Virus record (IMG/VR): IMGVR_UViG_3300009093_000008
Coordinates: 1 to 64,000 of that record
Source: a virus
Length of the DNA: 64,000 nucleotides
Direction: 5' to 3' (one strand)
Shown here: positions 937-62,218 of the stretch, piece by piece
Numbering within the stretch: the stretch's first letter is position 1
Layout of the letters: each line of letters opens with the position of its first letter
Translations under genes and position numbers: made by a program
Notes under the pieces: model-generated
Seen by the model: only the letters and a program-made list of their open reading frames with translations
What the model was told of the DNA's origin: nothing
Database searches by the model: none

Positions 937-1056
937 AGTTCGAGGAGTTAACGTCGTCCACGAAATATGACGGCCGCCTGTTTAACGCCTGGGCGGCGAG
1001 GACGGGGGATGCTCAGCTTTTGTTTGAGGTCATCAGAGCCACCAATTTGGACCTCG

Positions 1057-1129
1057 TGGCCGGGGGGAGATTCGAACTCCCAAATGCGAGCGTTATGAGC
1101 GCTCCGGCTTACCGTTGGCCTACCCGGCT
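1057..1129 (-). tRNA. tRNA-Met (anticodon CAT)
   Basis: On the minus strand the cloverleaf is complete. The acceptor is AGCCGGG/CCCGGCC, with the first pair A-C mismatched. T8-A9 is followed by a three-pair D stem GGC/GCC with GG in the loop. The anticodon stem is GAGCG/CGCTC with loop CTCATAA, anticodon CAT. The T arm is GGGAG-TTCGAAT-CTCCC and the discriminator is A, with no encoded CCA. A CAT anticodon could be elongator Met or a lysidine-modified Ile2; Met is the default. The reverse translation GGRFELP of the T arm creates a false plus-strand ORF here. It is the only canonical tRNA found in the window. Confidence 0.93.
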
Positions 1130-2713: not shown

Positions 2714-2781
2714 TTCCTGTGCCGCGCTCTGTCCCACAGGATGAACGCGACGATCATAGCGGTGATGATGAGCAGGGTCAC
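2710..2781 (-). CDS. 23-aa one-helix membrane peptide
   Basis: GTG 2781 overlaps the stop of the AAA+ ATPase gene as GTGA. The product starts VTLLIITAMIVAFILW, a single hydrophobic helix, then a basic tail DRARHRK. It ends in a GTGA overlap with the next membrane gene. The back-to-back stop/start overlaps on both sides are the main evidence that it is translated. It has no recognised family and could be only a coupling leader. Confidence 0.5.
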   Translation of the reverse strand: MTLLIITAMIVAFILWDRARHRK

Positions 2782-3995
2782 AGGTAGTGTCCGATCGCAG
2801 TCTCTGCTTCTTCGACGGTGTGCCCGCGAAGTTCGGTCTCGGTCTTCAGAGCATACAGCTCCGCAAGCGAGTGCGGTGACGCGACGTCCTTCCCGAGCCA
2901 CTTCGACGCCTGCTCGGCCGGAAGCTTGTCCACCTCGATCTTAGCCAGACACCGCCCGGGCCGGGACACGGCCGGGTGGAGCTGCTGGATACGTTCGTTC
3001 GAGGTGATGAGGAACATCACACGCATGCCCTGCCCGAGGATCCCGTCCGCCATGTTCAACAGCCGCGCGAGAGACTGCCCCGTCACGCCGCCCTCGCGGG
3101 CGCACAGCAGCTCGCCGGAGTCTTCCATGACGAGCACACGCCACGGCACCCTGGCGCCGCCCGGCCCGTTATAGTGATCACCCATGGCCAACTCGAACAG
3201 GTAGTTCGGGTCGCCCCACAGGTTCTCCGGATCCACAATGCAGTGGAAGGTGGACCAGTCTTTCCACGCGTGCGCCAGGCTGCGGATCATCGTGGTCTTC
3301 CCAGTTCCGGCCGGGCCGTGCAGCAGGATGATGCGAGGGCCGTTCGGGTCCGGGTGCTCGATCTTGTGCAGCTCGGCGAACCGGGACTGTACTTCCGTGT
3401 CGTAGTTGTCGCTGATCTCTGACCAGTGCGGAACGACAATGTCACGATAGGACGGCTTCGGGCCCATGCTGGTTGCGCGCCAGAAGTAGAACGGCACCAG
3501 GTGTGACCGGTCTTCTTCCTTGCCCATGGGAAGCTCGCCGTCGAGCTTGAGGCGCAGTCCCTTCAGGATCTTGTCGGCGCGGGCCGAAGAGTCCGCCCAC
3601 ACGCTGATAGATCCGAGACACCGGTTGCCGTCAGAAAGTTCCACGCCGATGATCGCGCCCCAGTCATCGCCGAGGCGGCAGGATGAGAGAAGGCCGGGTA
3701 CGGGGGCTTCATCGCCGGGATAAGCCCACGTAGCTACCTCGGTTCCCATCAGATTCCTGTGTGGTTTCACGAGACGCGAGAACCCGTCCGGCTGCCAGCG
3801 GCGGAAGTGGCGGAACCGCTTGTATAGCTGCGCCATGAGGACCGTGGTCATGGACAGGTCGTCGCCGTTCAGCGCGATGTCCGGCGCTTCCAGGCCGATG
3901 CGACGCATAAGCTCGTCAAAAGCGTCGGGAAGGGGAATGACAATGGTCATGTTGTCGGGGATGTCAGTGGTCATGGTCATCGGCTGTCTGGTCAT
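2778..3995 (-). CDS. AAA+ ATPase (DUF5925-like N-terminal region)
   Basis: 405 aa from ATG 3995 (ATGA overlap with the previous stop; GAGGACAG SD). Walker A GPAGTGKT lies near residues 226-234 and Walker B VLVMEDSGE near 287. The sensor-like Asn is in FLITSNE, and SRPGR is the arginine-finger region typical of classical AAA proteins. The first ~200 residues resemble the N-terminal domain found with actinobacterial DUF5925 ATPases (moderate certainty). Such proteins remodel protein or nucleoprotein substrates by hexameric ATP hydrolysis. The partner here is unknown; neighbours are small Cys-rich proteins. An interaction with host proteolysis is possible but not shown. Confidence 0.85.
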   Translation of the reverse strand: MTRQPMTMTTDIPDNMTIVIPLPDAFDELMRRIGLEAPDIALNGDDLSMTTVLMAQLYKRFRHFRRWQPDGFSRLVKPHRNLMGTEVATWAYPGDEAPVPGLLSSCRLGDDWGAIIGVELSDGNRCLGSISVWADSSARADKILKGLRLKLDGELPMGKEEDRSHLVPFYFWRATSMGPKPSYRDIVVPHWSEISDNYDTEVQSRFAELHKIEHPDPNGPRIILLHGPAGTGKTTMIRSLAHAWKDWSTFHCIVDPENLWGDPNYLFELAMGDHYNGPGGARVPWRVLVMEDSGELLCAREGGVTGQSLARLLNMADGILGQGMRVMFLITSNERIQQLHPAVSRPGRCLAKIEVDKLPAEQASKWLGKDVASPHSLAELYALKTETELRGHTVEEAETAIGHYL

Positions 3996-4354
3996 CGGCT
4001 GTCCTCTTCCAGTTGATCCCAGTCGGTATCCGGATCCATCTTGTTCAGCAGGACGCGGGGGAGCACGATCACCCGTTCCCATTCCCGAGTGTCGTACCCC
4101 GGTTCGGCGGGCTCGTTGAACCAGTACGCGCTACACGCATTGTAAGGGCTGTTCGGGGTCGCGTAGTTGAGGCGGTAGTAGCCCGGCTCGAACGGCGGTT
4201 CCTCCACGATCTCCTCGATCTCGGCTTCGTCGGGTACGTAGATGTTCCGCCCCGTGCTGTCGATCGCGTACTTATGGCGGGGTGTGGCGACCGACTGCAC
4301 GAATCCCTCGTCGGTGGTTTCCATCTCGTAGGTGACCCGGAAACGCTTGCTCAT
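3992..4354 (-). CDS. Hypothetical protein with PGYYRL module
   Basis: 120 aa, ATG 4354 in an ATGA overlap with the upstream gene. It contains FEPGYYRLNYA, similar to the FVPG[YF]Y segments in the products of 1611-1943 and 1936-2466, set in an acidic context (EIEEIVEEPP). No domain recognised; the repeated module suggests a small family expanded in this operon. Confidence 0.75.
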   Translation of the reverse strand: MSKRFRVTYEMETTDEGFVQSVATPRHKYAIDSTGRNIYVPDEAEIEEIVEEPPFEPGYYRLNYATPNSPYNACSAYWFNEPAEPGYDTREWERVIVLPRVLLNKMDPDTDWDQLEEDSR

Positions 4355-9411: not shown

Positions 9412-10938
9412 TCAGGTCGGAGCATGACAGAACGGGCAGGCCTTCGGATGGGACGCGAAAACGTACCCTCGCGCACAACGCTGACACGTTACCGTGCCGT
9501 ACGCCGCCGCGTAGTCCATGGACTGTAGACCCTTCAGCTCCGTGATGGCCCAGACGAGGGCATCCAGACGGTCCGGGCTCTGCGACGAATGCGGAGTCCA
9601 CCGCGTCATCTGAGTTTCCAGATCGGCGAACGTACCGTAGTGATGCACACGGCCTTGGTTGTAGAGCGACGCCACCGGCTCCGCGCGCAGGGCCTTACCC
9701 CGCGACGCCCGGACCGTCCGCACCGGAACGTTCTCGTCAACCGTGGCGATGAGGCTGGGGACCCAGTCGGCGCCGTGGTTCACCTCGGCCACGATGCAAT
9801 CTGCGTGCCACTCGTTGTAGGCCTTGATCAGCTGGTGACACGCCTGGTTCGGCGTGCCCTTCAGCGAGTAGTCCGCGAGTATGTAGCCGTGGCCGTTGTA
9901 GTCCACGCCCGCGACGACGATACCGTGCTCGTCGGAATCCGGGTTGTCCGAACCGGCGGGGTCGTAGCCGACCACGACACGTTCGAGCGAGATCAAGTCC
10001 AAGTCGTCGTGCCAGGTGCCCGCAGTGTCGAGCCACTTGCCCTTCAGGCGCCCGGAAGAGATCATGTCGCGGGTCCACAGCGCACCCTCGATGTCTTCCA
10101 GCAGCTGACCCTCAAGCTCCTGAAGTCCAAGCCGCGTGCCCTCGTACCGGCGTTTCATCTCGGCCAGGGCGATGGCGGACAGGTTGTCCTGGTTCTCGAA
10201 CGTCGTGCCTCGGGTGAGGTGAACCGTCCCGTCATCACGGCTCACCAGGTCGAGCATCAAGTCAGTAGGACGCGGGGTGGTGGTTACTACAATGCGCGGG
10301 TGCAGGCCCTTACGGACCGCCGGGACCAGCGCCGCATACCACGTCTCGCTATACCGCCAGGAACCCAGCTCGTCACACCAGGCGCCCGACAGGTTGTAGC
10401 CACGGACCTTCTCCGGGTTGTCGGCGGTGAACCCGTAGATGACGGAGCCGTTCGGAAGCGACAGCTCCAGCTCGTTCCGGCGGTAGCCGTAATCGATCTT
10501 GGCGTTCTTCAGGGCCGGGATGATGGCGTTTCCGAAACAGGTCTTCTGGCACGCGTTGAAGGTAGGGGCCAGAACGGCGTACTCGCCGGGCTCCGTGATC
10601 GCACGGGACAGGATCCAGTTCGATCCGACGAACGTCTTCCCGATGCCACGACCGGCCATGAGAAGCCAGATCATCCAGTCGTCATCGACCCCGCTACAGC
10701 CACAGGAGAAGCCACGGGAGTCTTCCAGGTGGTGCGACGGATGCTCAGGCGGAAGCTGCTTCGGTCTGGCCAAGTCGAAGTAGGGAAGCGGCGCCTTGGC
10801 CTTGGCTTCCCACTCCAGCTTTGCTAGAAGCTTCTGTTTCGCGTCAAGCGGCCAGCTACGCCAGTCGTCATAGGACTGGACAGGTGGAAGCTCCACCCGG
10901 TGGACGTTGACATTCGGGTCTTCCGGATCGAGTGCCAA
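9412..10938 (-). CDS. terL: Terminase large subunit with C-terminal zinc ribbon
   Basis: 508 aa. The motor packages DNA into proheads. Walker A is MAGRGIGKT (residues 94-102) and Walker B is AWCDE (186-190) with its catalytic Glu. The RNase H-like nuclease begins at VVGYDPAGSD, followed by VAEVNHGAD and SPDRLDALVWA carrying the other acidic residues. After the nuclease, residues ~485-505 hold CQRC...CPFC, a zinc ribbon not usual at this end of TerL. The start is TTG 10938 with AAGGGGG upstream; a later GTG is possible. The gene is 36 kb away from the portal gene. Downstream of the AlpA-like gene, 8 nt apart. Confidence 0.95.
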   Translation of the reverse strand: MALDPEDPNVNVHRVELPPVQSYDDWRSWPLDAKQKLLAKLEWEAKAKAPLPYFDLARPKQLPPEHPSHHLEDSRGFSCGCSGVDDDWMIWLLMAGRGIGKTFVGSNWILSRAITEPGEYAVLAPTFNACQKTCFGNAIIPALKNAKIDYGYRRNELELSLPNGSVIYGFTADNPEKVRGYNLSGAWCDELGSWRYSETWYAALVPAVRKGLHPRIVVTTTPRPTDLMLDLVSRDDGTVHLTRGTTFENQDNLSAIALAEMKRRYEGTRLGLQELEGQLLEDIEGALWTRDMISSGRLKGKWLDTAGTWHDDLDLISLERVVVGYDPAGSDNPDSDEHGIVVAGVDYNGHGYILADYSLKGTPNQACHQLIKAYNEWHADCIVAEVNHGADWVPSLIATVDENVPVRTVRASRGKALRAEPVASLYNQGRVHHYGTFADLETQMTRWTPHSSQSPDRLDALVWAITELKGLQSMDYAAAYGTVTCQRCARGYVFASHPKACPFCHAPT

Positions 10939-10946
10939 TGACCCCC

Positions 10947-11132
10947 TTACAGGTCACGGCCGCGAGCGCGGAAGACTTCCCTTACCTCGCCGAGGTCCCA
11001 GATGCGGGCACACTTCAACTGAACAGGTTCCGGAAACCATGGCTTCTCTGTGAGCTGGAAGGCGCGCTGACGTGACACCCCCAACATTTGGGCGATTTCG
11101 AAGACGCCCCCCACGTCGAGCTTACTAGTCAT
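10947..11132 (-). CDS. AlpA/MerR-like small HTH protein
   Basis: 61 aa from ATG 11132. VGGVFEIAQMLGVSRQRAFQL is a winged helix-turn-helix of the excisionase/AlpA kind, followed by FPEPVQLKCARIWDLGEVRE (wing). Such proteins bind operator or att DNA. It is the first gene leftward from the divergent promoter at 11140-11147 and precedes terL, so it may regulate this promoter pair. The long frame up to 11228 is antisense to the opposite gene. Confidence 0.75.
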   Translation of the reverse strand: MTSKLDVGGVFEIAQMLGVSRQRAFQLTEKPWFPEPVQLKCARIWDLGEVREVFRARGRDL

Positions 11133-11139
11133 GGAAGCA

Positions 11140-11147
11140 ACTATACT
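11140..11147. promoter_or_regulatory. Overlapping divergent -10 elements, both leaderless
   Basis: ACTATACT contains TATAGT for the minus strand (11145-11140) and TATACT for the plus strand (11142-11147), sharing four base pairs. Each lies 7 nt from an ATG (11132 leftward, 11155 rightward), so both mRNAs would start at or next to their start codons. No -35 boxes are evident. The two promoters cannot be occupied by polymerase at the same time. Confidence 0.6.
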
Positions 11148-11154
11148 AGACGTC

Positions 11155-11616
11155 ATGGGCAAACCAGACGAGGAACGGCTGATACGTCGCCGGACAGACG
11201 CTCTCGCCATGAAAGCTGAGTCCGCCACCTACGAACAGATAGCCGATGCCCTGGGTTACAGCAACAAGAGCCACGCCTGGAAAGACGTACAGGCCGGGCT
11301 GGAGAAGCTGCGGCAGGAGGAGCGCGAGGAGGCCGAGCGGCTGCGCGTGTTGCAGCGCATACGCCTCGAAGCGCTGCTACAGGCGGTGTGGCCACAGGCC
11401 ACCGGACAGGATCCCGCACGCCCCGGCGTCAACCTGCGACACGTCGAGGTGGCGCTGAAGATCATGGAACGACAGGCCAAGAACGAGGGCTCCGACGCCC
11501 CGGTGAAGACGGACCTGACGATCAGCACCAACGTAGACGCGCGGATCGTCGAGCTGATGGAACAGCTGGGCATAACACAAGCTCCCCGGACGATCGCCGG
11601 GGAGCTTGAGGACTAG
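11155..11616 (+). CDS. terS: Terminase small subunit-like HTH protein
   Basis: 153 aa from ATG 11155. ATYEQIADALGYSNKSHAWK is the N-terminal helix-turn-helix seen in actinophage small terminases. A coiled coil follows (LEKLRQEEREEAERLRVLQR), and the C-terminal part includes RHVEVALKIMERQAK. Such subunits bind pac/cos DNA and feed it to TerL, whose gene lies just across the divergent promoter. An HTH regulator of the same fold is the alternative. The last 10 codons encode a terminator hairpin. It is transcribed opposite to its neighbours. Confidence 0.72.
   Translation: MGKPDEERLIRRRTDALAMKAESATYEQIADALGYSNKSHAWKDVQAGLEKLRQEEREEAERLRVLQRIRLEALLQAVWPQATGQDPARPGVNLRHVEVALKIMERQAKNEGSDAPVKTDLTISTNVDARIVELMEQLGITQAPRTIAGELED
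11579..11607. terminator. Perfect 11-bp hairpin inside the end of the terS-like gene
   Basis: AAGCTCCCCGG (11579-11589) pairs exactly with CCGGGGAGCTT (11597-11607). It lies within the coding sequence, 7 nt before the TAG, and between convergent genes (rightward terS-like, leftward Pup). It can work for both directions; no long U-run is visible. Confidence 0.6.
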
Positions 11617-11618
11617 GT

Positions 11619-11807
11619 CTACTGTCCGCCCTTTTGCACGAACTGCTTCACGAACTCCTCGGAGTTCTTTTCCAGGACGTCATCGATCTCGTCGAGGAAA
11701 TCTAGGGCTTCGTCGGCTGCGGGGGTTTCCGGGGTGACTGACTCGGCAGTCTCGGGCTGTTCTTCCTCTTGGGAGGACTTGCCAGGCTTCACGAGCTTCT
11801 GTCCCAT
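11619..11807 (-). CDS. pup: Phage-encoded prokaryotic ubiquitin-like protein Pup
   Basis: 62 aa from ATG 11807, with GAAAGGAGG upstream; the frame to 11846 is an extension without SD. Pup is conjugated through its C-terminal Glu to lysines of targets by PafA, after Dop deamidates Gln, and Mpa/ARC then threads the conjugate into the proteasome. The sequence shows the hallmark C-terminal half: DEIDDVLEKN (39-48), FVKQFVQKGGQ (52-62), with terminal GGQ and the amphipathic helix that binds Mpa, Dop and PafA. The N-terminal half is acidic and disordered (SSQEEEQPETAES), as in host Pup, and the length matches (64 aa in Mycobacterium). No Dop, PafA or proteasome genes are in the window, so it would use host enzymes. 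It lies between a replication/regulation cluster and the terS-like gene. Confidence 0.9.
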   Translation of the reverse strand: MGQKLVKPGKSSQEEEQPETAESVTPETPAADEALDFLDEIDDVLEKNSEEFVKQFVQKGGQ

Positions 11808-11830
11808 GAAACCTCCTTTCGGCCATGCCC

Positions 11831-12082
11831 TCAGGATGCGCTCCACGTTGGCTCGCCGTCAACCGGCGTCTTGTCTCCACTGCACACGTTCATGTGCGAG
11901 ACCAGCGCCGCCATGGCCTTCTCATAGTCACTTCCTGCGCTCCGCACGAGTCCGCAGGAGTGATAGATACGGAACGCCCGATCATGGCGTGACCAGTGGA
12001 TACAGTCCAGATCGTAGCAATCCACCTTGTGAGAGACGACCTTCTCCCGACGTCGGGATGCCTCGTTGTCCTGCGTGCTCAT
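11831..12082 (-). CDS. Hypothetical protein upstream of Pup, 83 aa
   Basis: ATG 12082 (ATGA overlap). CYDLDCIHWSRHDRAFRIYH and CGLVRSAGSDYEKAM, later HMNVCSGD: four Cys and several His suggest a metal site. It is co-transcribed with Pup 23 nt downstream, but nothing in its sequence ties it to pupylation. Confidence 0.72.
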   Translation of the reverse strand: MSTQDNEASRRREKVVSHKVDCYDLDCIHWSRHDRAFRIYHSCGLVRSAGSDYEKAMAALVSHMNVCSGDKTPVDGEPTWSAS

Positions 12083-13086
12083 CGCCGCGTCTCTCTTCCC
12101 GTAGCCCGATAGAAGGTGCGACCGCTGACCTTCAGTCTCTCCATGATCTGCTTCTCGGACAGATCACCCCGGGTGAAGAGGATCCGGGCCGCCTCGTCCC
12201 GCTCGGCGCGGGTGAACCCTTCGGGTCGCTTGCCCTCCATGAGCCGTTCGACAACCACCCGGTCAGGCTCATCGGATTCACACTCCGCAGCCATCACGAC
12301 AGGCACGCCGGACCCCAGAGTGCCCGGGTCATCCCAGGAAGCAGGGGTACCCCAGCCCTCCCTCTCGGCCCGTCTCCGCGCCGAGGTGACGGCCGCCTTC
12401 TCCCGGTCACCAATCGGAGTCGGAGGCGTGTCGCCGATCTTGTCGTACAGCTCGGCCACAGCTACCGCCGTCTCCAGATACACGCGCTCCACCTGACCGT
12501 TGACTACCTTGTGCAAGGGGCCACCGCCGTTCAGCGGCCTACGCCCGATCATCTCAACCAAGGTATTGACCGGATAGCCAAGGGCAACCAGCGAACGGAG
12601 ACGGTACCTGGTCAGGTCAGCCGGAACGTAATCCTGGCTATGCCGCTGCATTACCTCGTCCCCAGTGATTGCCAAGATGGCGTCGCCCGTTCGAGCCTGA
12701 ACACGAGGAGGCGGAGGAATGCGTCCCGCCTCACCATCGCTGCGGCCGGTCAAGATTCGCAACAGGCTACGTACGTGGATACCCGAAACCCGCGCCTGCG
12801 AAGGCAGCCCCATCCCCTTGACGTCCCGCAACCAAATCATATGCTCGCGGATCACGTCGCCGTCATGCATCGGACGCGAACGCAACTTCGCGAGCTTGTG
12901 CGTCCTGTAGCGCTCCCGGTAGCAGCGAGCGCAGCGGCAACCCGCCGAATAGGTGGCGGAGAATCCGTGGCGCCGCCGGTACACCCTGCCGTACTGGTCT
13001 GGTAGACGTATGTACGTCTCGTCATTCTCGACGGCGTCCGTGGGGATGCCGTTCTCGTCCCACGTTCGCTCACTCGGCTTCGTCAT
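12079..13086 (-). CDS. DNA-binding protein with Cys motif and C-terminal HTH
   Basis: 335 aa from ATG 13086. The N-terminal part has SAGCRCARCYRERYRTH, the GCRCxxC motif seen in many actinophage proteins. A helical segment follows (GIHVRSLLRILTG). The C-terminus is a resolvase-like helix-turn-helix: RAERDEAARILF, then LSEKQIMERLKVSGRTFYR. It probably binds DNA, as regulator or replication accessory. The middle region (TLVEMIGRRPLNGGGP) is not recognised. It overlaps the HNH gene by 17 nt. Confidence 0.75.
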   Translation of the reverse strand: MTKPSERTWDENGIPTDAVENDETYIRLPDQYGRVYRRRHGFSATYSAGCRCARCYRERYRTHKLAKLRSRPMHDGDVIREHMIWLRDVKGMGLPSQARVSGIHVRSLLRILTGRSDGEAGRIPPPPRVQARTGDAILAITGDEVMQRHSQDYVPADLTRYRLRSLVALGYPVNTLVEMIGRRPLNGGGPLHKVVNGQVERVYLETAVAVAELYDKIGDTPPTPIGDREKAAVTSARRRAEREGWGTPASWDDPGTLGSGVPVVMAAECESDEPDRVVVERLMEGKRPEGFTRAERDEAARILFTRGDLSEKQIMERLKVSGRTFYRATGRETRR

Positions 13087-13492
13087 CTTCGCTCCTAGGC
13101 AGAACGGCTATACCGTCCGCATCCGCGAGCCGGTGGTTCGAATGCACGTGAACCGGGACTTCCCACGGAAACAGCCACGAATGGACGAGCAGGCCATCCT
13201 CATAGGCTTCGGAGCGGTGCGACTCAACCCAGCCGTGACAGCCGGTCGTGCCAGTGCCGCACAGCAACAGCAGATTAGACATGTCATTGATCCACGGGTT
13301 CTTAGTCCCGCCCATGCCGCGCGGCATCCGATGGTGGATCGAGAAGGCGCCACCGCCGACGATGTAAATTCCGCACCGCTCACACTTGTCATCAGCCCGC
13401 GTCCACACATCTATGCGCGTCTCAACGGCAGGACCCGTGTTCTTCTTCTTCGGCTTGATTCGGTTTCGTTGGAGCCTGGTCTTACGCTGCAT
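13070..13492 (-). CDS. HNH endonuclease
   Basis: 140 aa from ATG 13492 (AAGG at 5 nt); ATG 13522 with GGAGG is an equally plausible start adding 10 residues. The basic N-terminus MQRKTRLQRNRIKPKKK is typical. The core is RIDVWTRADDKCERCG, then SIHHRMPRGMGGT (catalytic His) and NLLLLCGTGTTGCHGW with VESHR. This is the single-domain HNH family found near packaging genes in many actinophages, where it assists terminase; here it is 2.5 kb from terL. Confidence 0.85.
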   Translation of the reverse strand: MQRKTRLQRNRIKPKKKNTGPAVETRIDVWTRADDKCERCGIYIVGGGAFSIHHRMPRGMGGTKNPWINDMSNLLLLCGTGTTGCHGWVESHRSEAYEDGLLVHSWLFPWEVPVHVHSNHRLADADGIAVLPRSEDDEAE

Positions 13493-13910
13493 CGGGACCT
13501 TGCGCCTCCAGGGCTTGTCCATCGTCCTCCTTGGCCAACTGCCGCCGTAGTCGTGGAGTGAACACCATACCACCGGCTACGCCACTGAAGGCCACATCTT
13601 GTTCTGCCCACCGGAAGCAGTTCGCCAGAACCGGGCAACGGCGACAGGATTCCAGAGCTTTCCCAATGGACTGCTCATCGTTGGTCACCCAAAAGACGGT
13701 GGTCTTGTCGCCGAGACACGCGGCCTCTTCATGCCAGTCCGGGTTGTCCGGGACGCTAAGCGGGGAATGCTCCCGCTTGTCTCCGCCGGGACACTCAGCC
13801 CCCTTAGCCTTATGGTACGGCAACACTGGGGTGGGTGACCGGAACCACCCGTCGCACCAGGCGCAACGCCTAGGCTGACGGGTGGGATACCGGGGAGGCT
13901 TACCGGCCAT
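13482..13910 (-). CDS. whiB: WhiB-family iron-sulfur regulator (variant G-rich turn)
   Basis: 142 aa from ATG 13910. WhiB proteins bind [4Fe-4S] through four cysteines and pair with sigma factor region 4. Here the cysteines are C65, C89, C92 and C98 (AACLG; CRRCPVLANC). The turn normally GVWGG reads GVAGGM, losing the conserved Trp. The basic tail TPRLRRQ follows. An N-terminal extension has CAWCDGWF and a later Cys, a possible zinc ribbon. A second WhiB gene is at 53012-53491. Phage WhiB proteins are known to interfere with host WhiB; that role is inferred here. Confidence 0.88.
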   Translation of the reverse strand: MAGKPPRYPTRQPRRCAWCDGWFRSPTPVLPYHKAKGAECPGGDKREHSPLSVPDNPDWHEEAACLGDKTTVFWVTNDEQSIGKALESCRRCPVLANCFRWAEQDVAFSGVAGGMVFTPRLRRQLAKEDDGQALEAQGPDAA

Positions 13911-14094: not shown

Positions 14095-14618
14095 GATGAG
14101 CCCCCGAGTTCGTTCCAGACGCTGACCCGTTGCGGGTCCTCGTAGTCAGCCTGCTGAGACATCCGCTTGTGCTTCTGGAAGTCCTGGCCCTGAAGCCTGG
14201 CCATCCACTGCAACCGTGACTCGCCCTTGGACGAAACCCGATCGGGGTGACACGTCGGGCAGTGCTTCACGGCGCCGCCGTACGAGAGCGGGAGGCCCTT
14301 CACCTCGATCATCCCGTGATCGCAGGGGGCTGTATGCGTACACGAACAGCTCGGGCGACCACAATGGTTCTCGACGTTGGGAGCGAACGACGGGGCGCTA
14401 GCCTGACGGCGGACCTTGATCTGCTCCATGACGACGCCGGGCGCCATCGTCGGGTAGTGCCACGCCGGAGCCACGTCGAGGAGGGCCGAGCGGACTTCGA
14501 TGTAAGTGTTCTTCTTAAACACCTCAAGCCACATGTTCGTCATGGCGTTGGTGGGTACCTGGGTGGGACAGATCGCCGCGACCATGCCGAGCAACTGCTC
14601 GGTTTCCCTGCGATTCAC
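14091..14618 (-). CDS. Possible helicase-loader-like protein with Zn motif
   Basis: 175 aa from GTG 14618 (GTGA overlap; GAGGAG SD). The N-terminal ~90 residues (NRRETEQLLGMVAAI; MWLEVFKKNTYIEVRSALLD; WHYPTMAPGVVMEQIKVRR) are helical and resemble the G39P-type loader/inhibitor region of phage replication modules. A Cys/His-rich part follows (CGRPSCSC; CDHG; CPTCHPD). Its place directly downstream of the replication-initiator-like gene supports a replication role. Confidence 0.65.
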   Translation of the reverse strand: MNRRETEQLLGMVAAICPTQVPTNAMTNMWLEVFKKNTYIEVRSALLDVAPAWHYPTMAPGVVMEQIKVRRQASAPSFAPNVENHCGRPSCSCTHTAPCDHGMIEVKGLPLSYGGAVKHCPTCHPDRVSSKGESRLQWMARLQGQDFQKHKRMSQQADYEDPQRVSVWNELGGSS

Positions 14619-15658
14619 TCCGGCTCCTCGTTCCCGAACCAGTCGGCTTCCCAAGCCTCCTGGGACATCCAGTCTGGTTTTCCTGTCGTCTTCCCCGCCG
14701 CCGTCGCCTGCTGCTTCTCACCTTCGAGGTCATCATCCCACGACCCGCGATTGATCCACGTGGCGGGGTGCGGAATGAACCTGACTTCACGGTTGGTAGC
14801 CTTGCAGAGGTCACCATAGCACACGGCCGCCTCCGAGAGTCGGCTAGGGCTGGCGCCAGCTCGGATGGCCTTCGTCCAGTTCCGCAGTGCGTCGGCCTTG
14901 CCGATCTTGCGAGGGTAGTTGATCCAGAACTGTTCGAACTCGGGGGGGTAGTTTCCATTCCCCTTCCTAGTTCCACTTCCCTTACCTTTCCCTTCCTCCT
15001 GGGAATAGTCTGGGAACAGTCCCGGACCGTTCTGGGAATTACCCGAACCAGCAGGTGGGGGGCTGTCACCCCTAGCCTTGTTACAGTGGATGTGCGCGGT
15101 TTTGATGTTTGACGGGTAGTCAGAACCTCCGCGTGAACGTGGGATGAGGTGGTCGGGTGACGGGTCGTTTTCCGGCTGCGGAGCGTCAGGGGCGTACTGC
15201 GGAGAGTCATGATCGTAGACGTTGCCAACTAGGGCGCGGCTTTCGTTGGTGGGGGCGCCGCAGATGTGACACATGTAGCCATCTCGGCGAAAATACATCT
15301 CGCGGTTGTCCCGATTGCTCAAGGACGGGGGCGCCAGACGCCCCGGCTGGGGCTTGTCGATCCGCTGGTGCTTACGGAAGTTTACGATGTAGACGGCGCG
15401 CTCTTGAGCCCGCCCCGCACGGTAGGCGTGGACGAGTTCCGCTTTCTCCAGCGCCTCCATCCAGTCGGCCACTTGAGACAGCGTGTGGTCATCGTACACA
15501 AAGGCCTTGGCCTTCATGTACTCCGGAGTCCACCGCAACAACCCCTCGTCATCGGCCACGTTCCAGGCCGCTATGAACAGCAGCCGGGCCCCGAGAGGGA
15601 GGGCGCCTATCGTCTCGTCTTCCCAGAACTCCGGCTTGATGGTGCGGATTCGGCTCAT
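14615..15658 (-). CDS. Replication initiator-like protein with inserted HNH domain
   Basis: 347 aa, ATG 15658 with GGGAG. Residues 1-110 (RIRTIKPEFWEDETIGAL; ARLLFIAAWNVADDEG) match the winged-helix region of phage replication proteins. Residues ~124-195 form an HNH nuclease: RRDGYMCHICG, DHLIPRSRGGSDYPSN, AHIHCNKARGD. After a low-complexity linker (GKGKGSGTRKGNG), residues ~238-290 carry FEQFWINYPRKIGKADALRN, the DnaD-like C-terminal part. All three blocks are in one uninterrupted frame. It probably binds the origin or loads helicase; whether the HNH is active is unknown. Confidence 0.8.
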   Translation of the reverse strand: MSRIRTIKPEFWEDETIGALPLGARLLFIAAWNVADDEGLLRWTPEYMKAKAFVYDDHTLSQVADWMEALEKAELVHAYRAGRAQERAVYIVNFRKHQRIDKPQPGRLAPPSLSNRDNREMYFRRDGYMCHICGAPTNESRALVGNVYDHDSPQYAPDAPQPENDPSPDHLIPRSRGGSDYPSNIKTAHIHCNKARGDSPPPAGSGNSQNGPGLFPDYSQEEGKGKGSGTRKGNGNYPPEFEQFWINYPRKIGKADALRNWTKAIRAGASPSRLSEAAVCYGDLCKATNREVRFIPHPATWINRGSWDDDLEGEKQQATAAGKTTGKPDWMSQEAWEADWFGNEEPE

Positions 15659-40914: not shown

Positions 40915-42783
40915 TTACGCCCAGGGAGTGGACGAACCGTTACCGTCCTTGGTCTGGAGACCCTGGAGCAGGCCGCAGTACTGCGGCGCGTTGAACACGA
41001 GCGCCCCGTACATGAACATGCTGTACCGGAACGACGCGTCGATCACGGGCCACGAGATGGACAGGTAGTCCTGAACCACGACCTTCTCGACGACGTTGGA
41101 GACGTTGCTCCACGCCATCGGCAGGGTGTAGGACATCAGCAGGGCGGTGCCCTGAGACATCCACGGGTGGACCATGAACTTGATGACCGAGCGGGTGATC
41201 GGGTTCTGGAACTCCGACACGGCCGCACCATCGCGGACGCTACCCACCTCGGACTGCTGGATGTTGATGCGGTAGGCGCCGTTGGAGCCCTTCGCGAGGA
41301 TGTCGTCAGACACCCGCTGGATGTCGCTACCTTCAGCGATCAGCTCAGACGGGTCAGCCTTGAACGCCTGCATGCCGGTCGCGGCGTTGGTGCCGGACCA
41401 CAGACCACCACACGCCGCGTTCAGGACGTTGCTGTTCAGCGTGTCCCCGACCGCGTTGTTGTAGTAGCCAGCACCCCAGTTCGTGGGGTACATGCTGCCG
41501 TCAGAAGCGTTGCCGGACAGAACCGAGATCAGGCCTTCCTGGTCGGTCGCGGCGTGCGTGCCCGTGTTCGAAGCGGGAGCCGCCCCGGTCGTGGGCAGAG
41601 CGCCCTGCACGGTGAACTTCACGCCACCCACACCACGCGCCTTCAGGAACAGGCCCGCAGCAGCCGGAGCCGAAGCGGCGCCCGCAGCGTACACGTTGAA
41701 CGCGGTCGTACCGGAGGGAACCCCGGCAATGACAACGTCCGCGACCTGAGTACCGGTGGCGTAGGTGCCAGCGGCCTGAACCACGTTGGAAATCGTGGTC
41801 TCGCCGTACGCGTTGGTAGCGGTGACCGCCACATACACGTTCGTACCGGAGCCGGTGATCGCCGTCTCACCCGCGCCCTTAGCCCGCAGCGTTGCCGAAA
41901 CGACAACCGGAGAGGACGGAGCGTGAGAAGTCGCGAACAGGTCCGCGTACTCCTCGGCCAGCATGAACTCCTGAAGCAGGATCAGGTTCGCCAGAGCCGA
42001 CAGGTCTTCGAAGCCCTGCGACGCGAACTGAGACAGCCACGACAGCGCCTCGGTCATACCCCAGTACCGGTAGGGGACGTCGATGTTCTCGGAGATCTGC
42101 GTACCGGAACCCGGCAGGCTCAGAGGCCAGTTGCCCGAAAGGGAACCGCCCATCAGCTCGGTCTGGGTGATGCGCAGGGCCGGAGCCGCGTTCTGGCCGG
42201 AGCCGGAGATCGCGGTGACGACCTTCTCTTGCCGCGCGACACCCTGACCGGGCGTACGCGGGATCTTGTTCCGCAGCGGGCTGTAAACCGGGTACAGCAG
42301 GCGCGACGGAGACACCAGGTCGAACGGCACGAAGCCAGTCGCGTTCGGCGACGTCAGCGTGAAGTTCTTGCCGGAGATCTCGGACAGCGCGCCCTGGATC
42401 TCGCCGACGAGGGTGTTGATACCCTGCATCGAGGGGTGCTGAGTCATCAGCGACCCGAGCTGGTTCGAGAACTGCGGGTTCAGGCCCTTGTAGACACCGG
42501 TGGGGTCAGCCACACCGTTCTTCACGGCCTTGCGGAGGGCGTCCTCCGCCTTCATGCTGTCGCGCAGGATCTCTTCCGGGTCCTCGGTCGGGGCCAGCTT
42601 GCGCTTACCCGTGTCCTGGTCCCGGATCCCCGAGATGTAGCCCTTGCCCTTGACAGAGTTGGGCATCCGTGCGGAAAGCATGCTGTCGGCGGAGCCGTAG
42701 CGGCCCGCCTCCGAAGCCACGGCGGCCTTGAAGATAGCCGCAGCTTCGCCCGCGTTCTGCGGGGTTGCAACGTCCGTTGCCAT
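40915..42783 (-). CDS. Major capsid protein (HK97 fold) with Ig-like insert
   Basis: 622 aa from ATG 42783 with GGGAGG. The N-terminal ~110 residues are a helical delta/scaffold-like arm. HK97-like core: FVPFDLVSPSRLLYPVYSPL and TEALSWLSQFASQGFED, with HPWMSQGTALLMSYTLP near the end. Residues ~285-405 break the core with an Ala/Thr/Val-rich beta domain (TNVYVAVTATNAYGETTISN) similar to fibronectin/Ig-like sugar-binding modules. The domain probably projects from the capsid. Gene follows the protease/scaffold gene by 21 nt. Confidence 0.9.
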   Translation of the reverse strand: MATDVATPQNAGEAAAIFKAAVASEAGRYGSADSMLSARMPNSVKGKGYISGIRDQDTGKRKLAPTEDPEEILRDSMKAEDALRKAVKNGVADPTGVYKGLNPQFSNQLGSLMTQHPSMQGINTLVGEIQGALSEISGKNFTLTSPNATGFVPFDLVSPSRLLYPVYSPLRNKIPRTPGQGVARQEKVVTAISGSGQNAAPALRITQTELMGGSLSGNWPLSLPGSGTQISENIDVPYRYWGMTEALSWLSQFASQGFEDLSALANLILLQEFMLAEEYADLFATSHAPSSPVVVSATLRAKGAGETAITGSGTNVYVAVTATNAYGETTISNVVQAAGTYATGTQVADVVIAGVPSGTTAFNVYAAGAASAPAAAGLFLKARGVGGVKFTVQGALPTTGAAPASNTGTHAATDQEGLISVLSGNASDGSMYPTNWGAGYYNNAVGDTLNSNVLNAACGGLWSGTNAATGMQAFKADPSELIAEGSDIQRVSDDILAKGSNGAYRINIQQSEVGSVRDGAAVSEFQNPITRSVIKFMVHPWMSQGTALLMSYTLPMAWSNVSNVVEKVVVQDYLSISWPVIDASFRYSMFMYGALVFNAPQYCGLLQGLQTKDGNGSSTPWA

Positions 42784-42804
42784 GTACCTCCCAGTACAGT
42801 TCGG

Positions 42805-44799
42805 TTAGTCTTCGTCAGACGGCTTGTGCCCGAGCTTTTCGAGCGTTTCGTATGCCATCTTTCGCCAAGCGGGATCACCGTCGTTGATCCGTGCCAGGGC
42901 ATACGCCTTGAGACGGTCATCTTCGGTAGGCTCGCGCCGCTCCACAGACGAAGTCCGCTCCACCGGAGTGACTACCGTACTGTCTGCCGACTTCGCGACT
43001 ACTCCCCGCACTGGGGCCAGAGCCGGATCGGGTTGGGCACCGAGTTCATCGATCGCAGCCTGCAACACTGCGATCTGGTCTTCCTGGCGTGCACTCTTCT
43101 CGACGAGTGCATCCATCTTCGCGAGGAATTCCTCGCTGAAGCCTGCGCCCTTCGGGGGCGTCACCGGAGTGAGCGTCGCACCCGCATGCATATCTGCGGG
43201 GATCTCACTCTTCCTGTCCACGAGAGGGCACACCTCGGAACGAGTGTCCGTGATGTGATCGTGGAGATTCTGAAGCATGTTCCGGGTGAACGCGGCCGAA
43301 CCGGCGGCGTACTCGGGAGAGATCCCGGAAGCACGCTTGTTACCCGGAGACGGGCGTTCCTGGCCGGAGGTCAGCGGGCCACGGTTGAACTGTGACGCAT
43401 CCACCCGCTGATTCGACGTCGGGATCCGAGCGCCGGAGTCAGAACCCGTAGCGTTCTCCCGCTGATGCCCCGAAGAGAGGTAGCCGCGCCGGAACTGGCC
43501 GGGAGACATGCTCGTCGGAGACACGTGGGCAGTCGGGTACATGTCCGCGAAAGCCTTGTGCAGCTGCGCGCGGGCGTCGGCCAGCATGTCCGGGTCTGCG
43601 GCCTTGAGGTCGGTCGCCAGCTCCCCAGCCTCGTCGCCGAGGAACGCACGGACAGCGTCCACGTTGATGGCGTCGTTCCACGACTTCAGCGAAGCGTACT
43701 CGCGGGACACCGCACCATCGGAGTACACCGGGCACAGCACGTCGTGCAGGCGCTTCACCGTATACGGCATCTCGCCCTTCTTCTTCGCGTTGGCCTCGTC
43801 CTCGTCCTCGTCGTTGTCGCCGTCACCATCCGGGTCAGCCTGGTTGCCGCCACCGAACGGGGGCTTCTTCTGGTCGGGAGCAGGCTTCTTCGCCTTCTCC
43901 TCCTCAGGCTCCGCCACGGACTTGTCGGCGTGAGGCAGATCAGCGTCGCACTTCGCACAGTTGCGGAGCTTGCTGTCCCCGTCGTAGGACGCGCCGCAGC
44001 TCGGGCAGTCCTTCTGGCCCTTCTCGACCTCGGGCTCTACGGTCTTGCCTTCCCGCTTGGCCAGCCACGCGGTACGGGACTCGTCGGTGCCAGCGAAGTA
44101 GAGGTCCTTCTCGGACTTCCACGCACGCCACGCCTCGGGCTCCTCCACGTCGGGCATGTTGTTGACGAACCGGTCACGGTCCGCAGCCCACTCGGCCAAC
44201 AGGTCGGCCGGGAACTCACCCTCGGCGGACTTCTCCACCACCGGCTCGGCGGTCTTCTCGGCCGCTTCCAGCGCTTCCTGAAGGTTGCCGAACATCTCCT
44301 CGGTGTCCACCGGGACACCATCCGCCGACTTCACGATCTTGAACCCGCAGTTCGCGTTGGCCGGACGGTCCACCAGGGAGATCTCGGCGAGGGAACCGCC
44401 GACGATACGGCCGTTCTTCGCCGCCGAGTCATGAATCACCTTCGGCTGACTGATGCCGATGGAGAAGGCCTGAAGCACGCCAGCACGGCACAGCTTCTTC
44501 GCGTTGTCCTCAACGACAAGCGCCTTCACGTAGTGGCCATCGTCGCTGGTCTGGACCTCGATGCCCTTGCCCGCCGGGTACAGGAACGGGGAATGCTGAA
44601 CACGGACGTTCGCGCCCGACGTCAGCCAATCCTCGATCGCCTTGGCCGACCACTTCTGATCGACGATCTGCTCGTCGGAGTCGAGAGAGGCATCGGTAGC
44701 CTTCCCGAAAACTATCAGATCCCCTTCGGGCGTCTCATCCATCTTCAAGATGGGAAAAGACATCCGGAGCTGATCGGTAGGGCTGGTCGTATTGGCCAC
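42805..44799 (-). CDS. Prohead protease fused to scaffold region
   Basis: 664 aa from GTG 44799 with GGAGG. Residues 1-160 have protease features: FPILKMDETPEGDLIVFGKA, VRVQHSPFLYPAGKG (His), and LQAFSIGISQP and LAEISLVDRPANANC (Ser, Asp/Glu region of the S78 herpes-protease-like class). The remaining ~500 residues are acidic and low-complexity (PDGDGDNDEDEDEANAKKKG), typical of an internal scaffold. A zinc ribbon (CPSCGASYDGDSKLRNCAKC) at ~269-288 is unusual. Cleaves scaffold and capsid during maturation. Confidence 0.85.
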   Translation of the reverse strand: MANTTSPTDQLRMSFPILKMDETPEGDLIVFGKATDASLDSDEQIVDQKWSAKAIEDWLTSGANVRVQHSPFLYPAGKGIEVQTSDDGHYVKALVVEDNAKKLCRAGVLQAFSIGISQPKVIHDSAAKNGRIVGGSLAEISLVDRPANANCGFKIVKSADGVPVDTEEMFGNLQEALEAAEKTAEPVVEKSAEGEFPADLLAEWAADRDRFVNNMPDVEEPEAWRAWKSEKDLYFAGTDESRTAWLAKREGKTVEPEVEKGQKDCPSCGASYDGDSKLRNCAKCDADLPHADKSVAEPEEEKAKKPAPDQKKPPFGGGNQADPDGDGDNDEDEDEANAKKKGEMPYTVKRLHDVLCPVYSDGAVSREYASLKSWNDAINVDAVRAFLGDEAGELATDLKAADPDMLADARAQLHKAFADMYPTAHVSPTSMSPGQFRRGYLSSGHQRENATGSDSGARIPTSNQRVDASQFNRGPLTSGQERPSPGNKRASGISPEYAAGSAAFTRNMLQNLHDHITDTRSEVCPLVDRKSEIPADMHAGATLTPVTPPKGAGFSEEFLAKMDALVEKSARQEDQIAVLQAAIDELGAQPDPALAPVRGVVAKSADSTVVTPVERTSSVERREPTEDDRLKAYALARINDGDPAWRKMAYETLEKLGHKPSDED

Positions 44800-44823
44800 T
44801 AACCTCCATGAGTTAGGGGAAAG

Positions 44824-44852
44824 GGGCTCACATAGCCCACGGATCTATTCTA
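44824..44852 (-). promoter_or_regulatory. Possible promoter (-10 TAGAAT) and leader hairpin of head operon
   Basis: TAGAAT reads leftward at 44852-44847, followed by GGGCT-ATGTG-AGCCC (44838-44824) in the 5' leader, then the GGAGG of GTG 44799. No convincing -35. It fills the only gap of note between the fibre/EndoVII genes and the protease. Confidence 0.4.
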
Positions 44853-44878
44853 GTCTGACGCACGCACAACCGTGTTGT

Positions 44879-45277
44879 CTATGCGCCATGTGCTTTCTTG
44901 TATCCTATGGCTTTCGGAGCCGGAGGATCATCCAGATACGCCGCTGCTTTTCGAAGCAGATCGGCATCGTCGCGTGCCGCCTTCAAGATCTCGCGGTTAC
45001 AGCGCTTGCACAGCAACCCACGAACGTAACCGGTCTTGTGGTCGTGGTCCACGTCGAGGCGGTACGGCCGGTCACCGACACAGATGGCACACTTCGCAGT
45101 TTGGGACACCAGCAGCCGCTCATAGTCGCCAGCATCCATCCCGTACGTACGCGACACCCTCAGGTTGTGAGCAGACTCGGAACGCTTCTTCTTACGACAC
45201 GAATGGCAGACCCTGCCGCGCTCGCTCACGTAGAACTTCTCGTCGCGGTTCTTGCCGCACGTAGCGCACTTCTTCAT
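44879..45277 (-). CDS. Endonuclease VII-like HNH protein
   Basis: 132 aa from ATG 45277 (or ATG 45295). MKKCATCGKNRDEKFYV, CHSCRKKK, then TYGMDAGDYERLLVSQTAKC, CAICVG and LDVDHDHKTGYVRGLLCKRC: the recombination endonuclease VII zinc/HNH pattern with the catalytic DHDHxTG. Such enzymes resolve branched DNA before packaging. Inserted between fibre and protease genes. Confidence 0.88.
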   Translation of the reverse strand: MKKCATCGKNRDEKFYVSERGRVCHSCRKKKRSESAHNLRVSRTYGMDAGDYERLLVSQTAKCAICVGDRPYRLDVDHDHKTGYVRGLLCKRCNREILKAARDDADLLRKAAAYLDDPPAPKAIGYKKAHGA

Positions 45278-59355: not shown

Positions 59356-60210
59356 TCAGTCCGGGCTGTCATCGCTGAACCCCTCATCGACGAGGCGACG
59401 CATCCTCACCGGGTCGTGCAGCGCGGCCCGGTACTTCATGGCGAGGTCGTTGTTCTGACCGGCCGTGCCGCCCTTCCAGAACCGCGTCACGTGGGTGTTC
59501 CCGCCGAAGCGCGGGTGCCACAGGTGATACACCGGGTTGTCGGTGGTGCGGTGTCGGCAGTACAGGGTGTCGAGGGCCCACAGGAACGACACATCCTCAC
59601 TGCCCCAGGAACGGAACCGAGGATCCATGCCACGCACCAGCTCGAACGCTCTACGCGGCATGATCGTGATCAGCGCGCCCCAGTGGTGGCCGGATGAGGT
59701 TCCGGTCCACACGTCCAGCTCCCACGACGGGGGCGGGTCTTCTAGGTGCACACGCCTGCGCGGGTTGCTCTCCAGCAGTTCCTCGGAGAACTCGGCACTG
59801 AGCCGGTAGAACCTGCGATAGGGCACATACCAGCGTCGGTGTCCTCGGCGCTCGGCGTCGCGGATGTTCTGCGCACACTCCACGATCACGTCAGGATCGA
59901 TCAGGCAGTCCGAGTCCATGATCACGAACACTTCGCCGGTCGCACGGCGGCAGCCGTCGTTGACCGCCATCGACTTCGAGAACGGGTCGAACCCGTCGTC
60001 GGTGCCCATGACGATCTCGATGCCCGGGAGGTGGTGCGTGTAGTACTCCCGCAGCCATTCCCACGTGCGCTCGCGAATGTCGTTGTCCGGCCGGAACGGT
60101 ACGACAACCGAGATACCATGCCCGCGCTGATGTCGCTTGCCCGGTCGGGTCTTCATGAGGTTGAGGCGACGCATCCACTCGAATGCGGCATCCCAAGGCT
60201 GTCGCACCAT
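59356..60210 (-). CDS. Glycosyltransferase family 2-like (GT-A)
   Basis: 284 aa from ATG 60210. GISVVVPFRPDNDIRERTWE, then EVFVIMDSDCLIDPDVI (DxD-like metal/donor site) and GALITIMPRRAFELVRGMDP and SWGSEDVSFLWALD, the galactosyltransferase-type C-terminal ED motif. Such enzymes in actinophages modify virion proteins or cell glycans. Pairs with the pyruvyltransferase-like gene 0.2 kb upstream. Cytoplasmic, no membrane helix. Confidence 0.88.
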   Translation of the reverse strand: MVRQPWDAAFEWMRRLNLMKTRPGKRHQRGHGISVVVPFRPDNDIRERTWEWLREYYTHHLPGIEIVMGTDDGFDPFSKSMAVNDGCRRATGEVFVIMDSDCLIDPDVIVECAQNIRDAERRGHRRWYVPYRRFYRLSAEFSEELLESNPRRRVHLEDPPPSWELDVWTGTSSGHHWGALITIMPRRAFELVRGMDPRFRSWGSEDVSFLWALDTLYCRHRTTDNPVYHLWHPRFGGNTHVTRFWKGGTAGQNNDLAMKYRAALHDPVRMRRLVDEGFSDDSPD

Positions 60211-60408: not shown

Positions 60409-61167
60409 TTAACCTCCGGTTCGATCTCGGACCGACTTGCCGAACACCTCGAAGGCGTCGGCGAGCTGGTCTCGTATGTCGTTAATCTTATCGCGGTTCG
60501 CCAGCTGGAACTTCCCCACCTCGATGGGCATATCGATAGCGGCCGAATAGTCTTGCCATTTGAAACGGCCGCCCTCGTTCGGGTTGTCGAGGGTAGTGCT
60601 GTGAATCACGCGGCGGGGAATGCCGAAAGCGTCGGCCAAGATAGTCCCGTGCAGAGACGAGGTAACCACCCGGCGAGACTCCGCTATCGTCTGCGCCACC
60701 CACAGCGGATCCCGCCACGGATGGACCACGATCGAGTCGGGACCGGCGACGAACTCGCGCATCGTCTCCAGCTTGTGGTCAGTCAGGTGCGGAACGATCG
60801 CGGTACGCCAAACCTTCGTGGTGGGTGTGACGAGTTCTGGCGCGAGTAGGCCCGGGTCGCCTATGGCGTGTCCACCCTTGTAGCCCGGGGCCGTCAGCGG
60901 GCCGCGTAGCGCCAGCACGGTGGCATTCTGAAGTTGCGGGGTGAACGTGGGGTACAGGTTTCCGCATCCGAGTACCGTACCGGCGAAGTCCGGGGGTAGG
61001 TGATGCAGGATCGAGCCGATCACCGCCACGTCCGCGTCCTCCGGAGTAGAGAGGGCGCAATCGACGTTCGCGAAACGGTTCAACAGGTACGGGGCGAGCA
61101 GGTCGCCGAAGTTCTTCTTCTTCGTCCAGTAGTAGGCCTTGACTACAGGTCGCGGGCGTCGGCGCAT
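60409..61167 (-). CDS. Polysaccharide pyruvyltransferase-like protein
   Basis: 252 aa from ATG 61167. Family pattern: YYWTKKKNFGDLLAPYLLNR (NFGD), GCGNLYPTF, GYKGGHAIGDPGLLAPELV, and SSLHGTILADAFGIPRR, the conserved SxHG. CsaB-type enzymes transfer pyruvate to sugars, and some members transfer sugars. With the adjacent GT2 it may build a modified glycan on virion proteins. Confidence 0.85.
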   Translation of the reverse strand: MRRRPRPVVKAYYWTKKKNFGDLLAPYLLNRFANVDCALSTPEDADVAVIGSILHHLPPDFAGTVLGCGNLYPTFTPQLQNATVLALRGPLTAPGYKGGHAIGDPGLLAPELVTPTTKVWRTAIVPHLTDHKLETMREFVAGPDSIVVHPWRDPLWVAQTIAESRRVVTSSLHGTILADAFGIPRRVIHSTTLDNPNEGGRFKWQDYSAAIDMPIEVGKFQLANRDKINDIRDQLADAFEVFGKSVRDRTGG

Positions 61168-61447: not shown

Positions 61448-62218
61448 TCAGTCCGAGGGCGGTTGCCGATCGAAGGCCAAATGTCCTTTGAAGGCCAGTT
61501 CCCGTAAGAACGGCACGAAGCCCAGAGCGCACACGCCCAGGCAAGCGAGAGCTGCTGACCACCTTAGGAACCTGTCCTTCTTCTCTTTGTGGGCCTGGTC
61601 CCACCACCGCGACACGGCGGGGATTCGCAGGATAGCAAGTGGGAGGGTAGCCAGGATGTAGTCGCCGAAGAACCGCATCCTGAAGCCGAACAGCAGCAAC
61701 AGGTGTATGGCGATAGACGCCCATACCACGTAGACGAGGCGGTGGACGATCCGCCAACGTTTGCCCAGCCACTTCAGCGCCCACTGGTTCGACGTCACCA
61801 CCATCGGGAGCAGCAGCGCGAACGACAGCGACCCCAGAACCAGGAAGGTGTGGCCGAACAGCCGCGTCAGGAACCCGCCGGGGAACGTGTCAGACGTGGT
61901 GATAGCTGCCAGGGTGATATCGAGCGCGGCGATGGCGAACATAGCCCGTCCGGCGTCTCTGCGCAGGATCAGGTGCGTACGCCACCCGCCGGTGAGTGTC
62001 GCCAGCGGGGTGACCATGAGTAGGACGATGAACGCCGATACAGCGCCCGTCCCTCCCACGTCGGCCGTAGACGCCGAGAGGTCTTGGAAACTATGCGGCC
62101 AGCCCATTACGCCAGCCCAGATCTCCGGGGCCAGGAACACAAACGGGATCAGGAACAGCGCCCGGAACAGCCACACGAACCATGGTTGACGTCCGGGTTT
62201 AGCGATAGCACCAGGCAA
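61448..62218 (-). CDS. MsrQ/YedZ-like heme-binding membrane protein
   Basis: 256 aa with six hydrophobic helices. Start TTG 62218 after GAAAGAGAG. TSNQWALKWLGKRWRIVHRL and VYVVWASIAIHLLLLFG match the MsrQ (protein-methionine-sulfoxide reductase, heme subunit) core. The His pair is spaced 13 residues, as in MsrQ. In helix 3, where MsrQ has a His ligand, RRDAGRAMFAIAALD carries Asp. MsrQ passes electrons from the respiratory chain to MsrP to repair oxidised periplasmic methionines. No MsrP is in the window. The missing ligand may alter heme binding. Confidence 0.82.
   Translation of the reverse strand: MPGAIAKPGRQPWFVWLFRALFLIPFVFLAPEIWAGVMGWPHSFQDLSASTADVGGTGAVSAFIVLLMVTPLATLTGGWRTHLILRRDAGRAMFAIAALDITLAAITTSDTFPGGFLTRLFGHTFLVLGSLSFALLLPMVVTSNQWALKWLGKRWRIVHRLVYVVWASIAIHLLLLFGFRMRFFGDYILATLPLAILRIPAVSRWWDQAHKEKKDRFLRWSAALACLGVCALGFVPFLRELAFKGHLAFDRQPPSD

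Follow-up and report, generated by a model that had tools for sequence, protein, structure and literature searches.

Why should a virus carry a gene for Pup, the ubiquitin-like protein modifier of bacteria, and what could such a gene do without the rest of the pathway? The question is raised by one IMG/VR record of 66,281 bases, of which the first 64,000 (hereafter the window) were analysed. The first-pass annotation, made from the sequence alone, had called the product of a short minus-strand reading frame a phage-encoded Pup and named an HMM search as one of the checks. The search is positive (PF05639 and TIGR03687), the claim holds, and the finding proves wider than that annotation stated.

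The translated frame starts at an ATG, encodes MGQKLVKPGKSSQEEEQPETAESVTPETPAADEALDFLDEIDDVLEKNSEEFVKQFVQKGGQ and stops directly after GGQ. The Pfam family Pup (PF05639) matches it at E 9.7e-17 and 62.1 bits (cut-off 27), and the alignment spans residues 2–62, that is, through the last residue. The NCBIfam model TIGR03687 gives 57 bits (cut-off 41.45), and Pup chains of the PDB (3m91, 3m9d, 7px9, 7oxy and 4bjr) are matched at E 5e-9. These matches far exceed chance, and membership of the family is beyond doubt. The C-terminus reads QKGGQ with the stop codon next, meeting the expectation that a Pup ends in GGQ or GGE. The Shine–Dalgarno sequence AAAGGAGG, which had been described as excellent and is in fact perfect, lies 4 nt upstream of the ATG; a GTG 13 codons upstream is an alternative start, and the AAAGGAGG site serves the ATG only.

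Modelled by AlphaFold with an alignment of 16 Pups, residues 1–28 are unstructured and residues 29–59 form a single helix. The mean pLDDT of 68 (about 83 in the helix core and about 55 for residues 1–28) is expected, because the protein is largely disordered. Two further expectations of a Pup are met: a disordered, charged N-terminal half that can act as a threading segment (judged from AlphaFold and the host-like N-terminal length), and a C-terminal amphipathic helix (judged from sequence and AlphaFold, without data on binding to PafA, Dop or Mpa). Compared with 89 host Pups, an even sample from Actinomycetota genomes, the window Pup keeps all of the invariant or near-invariant C-terminal residues (L, D, E, I, D, V, L, E, N, A, E, F, V, Q, K, G and G) apart from a conservative A-to-S change. 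It retains both basic residues, the Lys preceding GG and the one at position -9, and is canonical in that sense; lysines are present in the N-terminal part as well as at the C-terminal position.

The record encodes terminase, portal, tape measure, endolysin and replication proteins, and the virus is therefore a tailed phage, with a siphovirus the probable type. The WhiB-like protein and an Rv2525c-like endolysin domain suggest an actinobacterial host, which is an inference, as the host itself is not identified. The pup gene is the last of a minus-strand run that is headed by the replication-initiation/HNH gene and continues through the WhiB, HNH, phrog_1590 and 83-aa genes (Table 1). The terminase gene is only 0.7 kb away, with the 161-aa phrog_645 gene in-between, which places pup within the phage genome, and a second contig matches the window over 11,696 bases at 99.98% identity. 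That the gene is expressed and belongs to a regulatory cluster, as the first-pass annotation had it, remains inference: the run does include a WhiB-like regulator and a replication-initiation/HNH protein, and early expression of pup is predicted from this WhiB/replication operon.

Table 1. Positions of pup and its neighbours in the window, and of Mpa/ARC genes in viral contigs (positions refer to the window unless preceded by a locus label)
Feature	Position	Strand	Evidence or remark
Phage pup, 62-aa Pup ending GGQ	11619..11807	-	PF05639, TIGR03687, translation, AlphaFold
Shine–Dalgarno AAAGGAGG	11812..11819	-	sequence
83-aa ORF just upstream of pup, in the minus-strand run	11831..12082	-	no family
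335-aa phage protein, unknown function	12079..13086	-	phrog_1590, E 3e-29
HNH endonuclease-like protein	13070..13573	-	phrog_740, E 1e-31
WhiB-like transcription factor	13482..13910	-	PF02467, E 2e-11; phrog_472
Replication-initiation/HNH protein, head of the minus-strand run	14615..15658	-	phrog_5718, E 3.5e-61; phrog_270, E 2e-30
161-aa protein convergent with pup	11131..11616	+	phrog_645 (labelled RNase E), E 6e-23
Terminase large subunit	9412..10938	-	PF03237, E 5e-18; PF17289, E 2e-14; phrog_979, E 2e-36
Mpa/ARC, 533 aa, complete	L256:3824-5425	+	IMGVR_UViG_3300034418_008582
Mpa/ARC, 531 aa, complete	L257:267-1862	-	IMGVR_UViG_3300025886_001308
Further Mpa/ARC of a viral contig	L260:2870-4468		98% identical
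Further Mpa/ARC of a viral contig	L263:2594-4201		
Further Mpa/ARC of a viral contig, partial	L262:3773-4978		

The usual, though not defining, adjacency of pup to dop, pafA or mpa is not met in this record. Searches with PF03136 (PafA/Dop), PF00227 (20S) and PF16450 (Mpa OB domain) find no match across the 66,281 bases, and the claimed absence of Dop, PafA and proteasome genes holds. The window phage, in which the Pup ligase PafA (PF03136) is absent, does not have a complete pupylation system, and the reliance on host conjugation enzymes that had been proposed is supported as an inference. An AAA+ protein of the window (2778–4082, minus strand) was considered as an Mpa and rejected; it is a DUF5925-type ATPase (weak match; phrog_33861) of unknown function. 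As separate observations, the minus strand of the window holds unusual host-like cargo, resembling a family-2 glycosyltransferase (59356–60210), a polysaccharide pyruvyl transferase (60409–61167) and a ferric-reductase-like membrane protein (61448–62218), and the sole tRNA found in the window is a tRNA-Met (CAT) at 1056–1129, minus strand.

Pup is not confined to this virus. Two DNA-pattern scans of IMG/VR and two protein scans, with hits confirmed by profile or by ORF reading, place Pup in 57 further viral contigs; distinct full-length phage Pups number 35, the window and the cultured Streptomyces phage Dagobah included. The phrog_2 terminase occurs in 19 of the 48 Pup records tested, the window and Dagobah among them, and in the remaining records one finds terminases of other types, portals, a T4-type major head protein or a phage DNA polymerase. 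The neighbourhoods of pup vary widely: several families have it beside or inside the terminase–portal block, others in DNA-metabolism regions, and T4-like phages immediately before the UvsW-like helicase gene. Because it is found across such differing phage types and neighbourhoods, pup is a recurrent phage gene with many unrelated gene contexts; the search of other phages that the first-pass annotation had called for thus succeeds, though mostly at loci unlike that of the window. Viruses seem to have entered the Pup–proteasome pathway repeatedly, although the benefit to the phage is untested. How often phages captured the gene independently is more than an alignment of only 67 columns can resolve: the best tree implies 11 label changes, starred branches force two, and a single phage clade is not rejected (p-AU 0.40, with too few columns).

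Profile searches find no PF03136 in any of the 57 contigs, the window or Dagobah, and no 20S gene occurs in any viral record tested. By comparison, the closest bacterial Pup loci have PafA/Dop/Mpa genes adjoining in all but one case (79 of 80); the sole exception (L148:7959-8159) lies in a Patescibacteria-labelled genome and has no PafA, Dop or Mpa within 8 kb on either side. We rely on the PF03136 profiles for the absence of PafA/Dop, because a DNA-motif scan of IMG/VR, which gave 0 hits, misses most bacterial PafA/Dop loci (the same motif recovers only 8 of 270 collected loci). No prophage Pup was seen among 247 sampled Actinomycetota genomes, 103 of which have a Pup match, always exactly one and never two. 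When cultured phages were searched by tblastn, three acidic queries gave no hits, which is not evidence of absence as the low-complexity filter probably masks the helix, and other queries gave only two credible hits, Dagobah and MT835496. The latter (MT835496.1, an INPHARED 'Bacteriophage sp.' of 159 kb from human faeces) was rejected as a Pup phage: its positions 41859–44998 (L003) are a bacterial Mpa-Dop-Pup-PafA operon, and the record is likely a bacterial contig filed as phage.

Some Pup phages carry a second component of the pathway. A PF16450 search of the Pup records puts two T4-like contigs (L256 and L257) above the cut-off. Their ATPases are 70% identical to one another and score 586 and 617 bits against the TIGR03689 'proteasome ATPase' equivalog cut-off of 504.75; the best PDB match for the phage Mpa/ARC is Mpa itself (7px9, E 4e-135). 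Each has an N-terminal stretch that aligns with the coiled coil of Mpa, the OB and AAA domains, the Walker A motif GPPGCGKT and the pore-loop WVG, and both end in the docking motif GQYL, as Mpa does. The features by which we recognize an Mpa/ARC (coiled coil, OB, AAA, GQYL and equivalog score) are thus met in L256 and L257 and not in the window. On the L065/L256 contig there are also genes for T4-type scaffold and major head proteins and for SbcC/SbcD-like (gp46/47) and UvsW-like proteins. Neither Pup nor PafA was seen in the records of the three further Mpa/ARC genes (L260, L263 and L262), which are possibly fragments. A PHROGs scan of one phage Mpa/ARC returned generic AAA families only. Some phages thus encode the tag together with its receptor-unfoldase and would have to borrow the ligase and the protease: a 20S gene is absent from every viral record tested, and PF03136 from every phage Pup record.

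In the 35 phage Pups, helix and tail retain their hydrophobic positions and the Gln-Gly-Gly, and the N-terminal segments are as long as those of host Pups (mean 38 versus 38 aa). Over the C-terminal 26 codons, dN/dS is about 0–0.1 in three families (L007/L010/L014/L015/L022, L017/L018 and the T4-like one), with some pairs having zero non-synonymous changes at pS 0.36–0.62. Related phage Pups thus show strong purifying selection on the C-terminal helix; the exception is Dagobah versus L021, with an excess of replacement in the tail. The window Pup has no divergent close relative from which its own dN/dS could be derived, its single relative being 99.98% identical.

Two basic positions differ between phage and host Pups. 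The Lys before GG is kept in 24/35 phage Pups versus 89/89 host Pups (Fisher p = 2.5e-7), and Arg or Lys at position -9 in 20/35 versus 88/89; phage Pups without a basic residue at these positions include L002, L045, L056, L076, L077 and L080. The p value for Lys is a guide only, as the phage Pups are related and one scan demanded that residue. In M. smegmatis this Lys is the acceptor for Pup–Pup products (PMC4783102), and its loss may, as a possible inference, spare abundant phage Pup from self-consumption. Two other apparent differences were set aside. That phage Pups favour GGE, bypassing Dop, seemed strong against a first, similarity-biased host set (20/35 versus 13/78) and was not significant against the even Actinomycetota sample (34/89, p = 0.07); the window Pup ends in GGQ anyway. 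A phage-specific lysine-rich N-terminus is not used either: against the even sample of hosts the difference is small (p = 0.02; 2.7 versus 1.7 lysines in the first 16 residues, p = 3e-4, uncorrected for relatedness), and some hosts are alike. We note that the Pups at L017:8606-8803 and L018:7323-7520 are identical but for the GGQ/GGE end, a natural one-codon switch between needing Dop and not needing it.

What, then, would the phage Pup do? We lean, by a modest margin, towards a working, conjugation-competent tag that uses host Dop and PafA and raises or skews proteasomal degradation. In this model, the minus-strand operon would yield Pup (GGQ) during infection, host Dop would deamidate the last Gln to Glu, and host PafA would ligate the product onto lysines of host proteins. 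Host Mpa would then bind the C-terminal helix, thread the disordered N-terminus and deliver the conjugate to the 20S proteasome of the host, and the raised, perhaps skewed, turnover would benefit the phage, either by removing host or defence proteins or by freeing amino acids. The requirements of Dop, PafA and Mpa are known, namely GGQ deamidation, ligation via Glu, helix binding and N-terminal threading (PMC3511204, PMC12288473, PMC8755798), and a disordered N-terminus with a single helix is the layout described for Mpa engagement (PMC8755798). The window Pup satisfies these requirements as far as sequence can tell, without biochemistry. An independent hint that the proteasome is relevant comes from Rhodococcus phage WC1, whose infection reportedly up-regulates both proteasome subunits (alpha and beta) of the host along with an associated ATPase (PMC10986025).

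The model rests on what is shown, namely the identity of Pup, its sequence determinants for Dop, PafA and Mpa, and the lack of other pathway genes in the window record, along with the recurrence of Pup across phages, the purifying selection in related Pups and the Mpa/ARC of some Pup phages. The expression and conjugation of Pup, like its substrates and its benefit to the phage, are inferred. Against the model, data on conjugation, binding and expression are lacking, and a host Pup system is assumed, as the host is unidentified. Since the window has no Mpa gene, the T4-like Mpa evidence bears on it by analogy only, and purifying selection on the helix is equally expected of a decoy that binds PafA, Dop or Mpa. 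The roles proposed in the first-pass annotation (redirecting host proteins, acting as a decoy, tagging defence proteins) remain hypotheses without functional data.

The decoy is the rival that survives best and remains possible: free phage Pup would flood Dop, PafA and/or Mpa as a competitive inhibitor, shielding phage or host proteins. In its favour, no ligase accompanies Pup in any viral record tested, the conserved part is the binding helix, roughly one in three of the distinct phage Pups has lost the C-terminal Lys, and Mycobacterium phages are reportedly rich in lysine-free stretches, as if evading pupylation (PMC10665810). Against it, phage Pups retain an end that can be ligated (GGQ/GGE) and an N-terminal threader of full length, neither of which a pure decoy would obviously need, and the Mpa of some Pup phages, bearing a 20S docking motif, would promote degradation and not block it. 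The working tag is favoured over a pure decoy because of these three features.

Less well supported, and unlikely, is an overload in which excess Pup leads to self-pupylation and degradation of PafA and to Pup–Pup products, so that pupylation ends during infection. M. smegmatis PafA does self-pupylate, which alters its own stability in a proteasome-dependent manner, and lysines of Pup accept Pup (PMC4783102); such lysines are present in the window Pup, both N-terminal and C-terminal. However, direct evidence is lacking, and the di-Pup acceptor Lys is gone in 11/35 phage Pups, the opposite direction for those phages. That pup is a passenger, a host gene captured by chance and not (yet) used, is very unlikely: it is a small gene at a module boundary, and the window Pup is known in just one other near-identical copy, but the strong Shine–Dalgarno sequence, the intact ORF, the lack of a linked host flank, and the purifying selection and recurrence of related Pups over many phage types speak against it. 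An artefact of assembly or binning that joined a host Pup locus to viral sequence, as MT835496 might lead one to fear, is all but excluded, and host contamination was rejected, by the phage genes on both flanks of pup, the absence of PafA/Dop, the second contig agreeing over 11.7 kb and the Pup of cultured Dagobah.

A bolder extension of the working-tag model, to which we would give slightly less than even credence, is a virus-directed branch of the Pup–proteasome pathway, operated by phages whose hosts have a proteasome. These phages would supply their own tag (the window and dozens of others) and, in the T4-like phages, their own unfoldase with a 20S docking motif, and the host proteasome would degrade host, possibly defence, proteins chosen by the virus.

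Phage Pup is not mentioned in reviews of pupylation and bacterial proteolysis from 2012, 2021, 2025 and 2026, nor is any phage in a comparative pupylation paper of 2008. No paper on phage Pup was found in the literature searched, which left out most subscription papers and all preprints, and earlier reports are possible. The statement that no role has been described stands, with one addition: the GenBank record of Dagobah already annotates a phage Pup, without functional work and without discussion in the Dagobah paper. One unstudied annotation is all that was found on phage use of Pup; the Mpa/ARC with GQYL in two T4-like Pup phages is new. An orphan Pup in so many phages, with Mpa/ARC in some, leads us to infer that pupylation or the proteasome matters in infection, and direct testing is feasible with cultured Dagobah and the laboratory host S. 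coelicolor.

Among known systems, bacterial Pup (M. tuberculosis Rv2111c, Nocardioides) shares with the window Pup its length, the disordered N-terminus and the LDEIDDVLExNxExFVxxFVQKGGQ helix and end; the best full-length bacterial match is from Nocardioides, at 55%. The window Pup differs in being encoded by a phage whose record lacks PafA, Dop, Mpa and prcBA, and in its divergent N-terminus, a helix Lys where hosts mostly have Glu, and a Ser where hosts have Ala. The Dagobah protein (HUN42_00036 in MT711977, annotated 'ubiquitin-like protein Pup'; PF05639 E 6e-11) is likewise an orphan phage Pup, but has 78 aa, ends FVQVGGE with the Lys lost, and is adjoined by endolysin and primase-polymerase genes. 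The other IMG/VR Pup phages (L005–L085) are like the window in having Pup without PafA/Dop, whereas their phage types and pup positions differ, and the T4-like phages L256 and L257 differ further by their Mpa/ARC (TIGR03689), which is absent from the window. Eukaryotic viruses hijack ubiquitin, and phage use of Pup would be the bacterial analogue.
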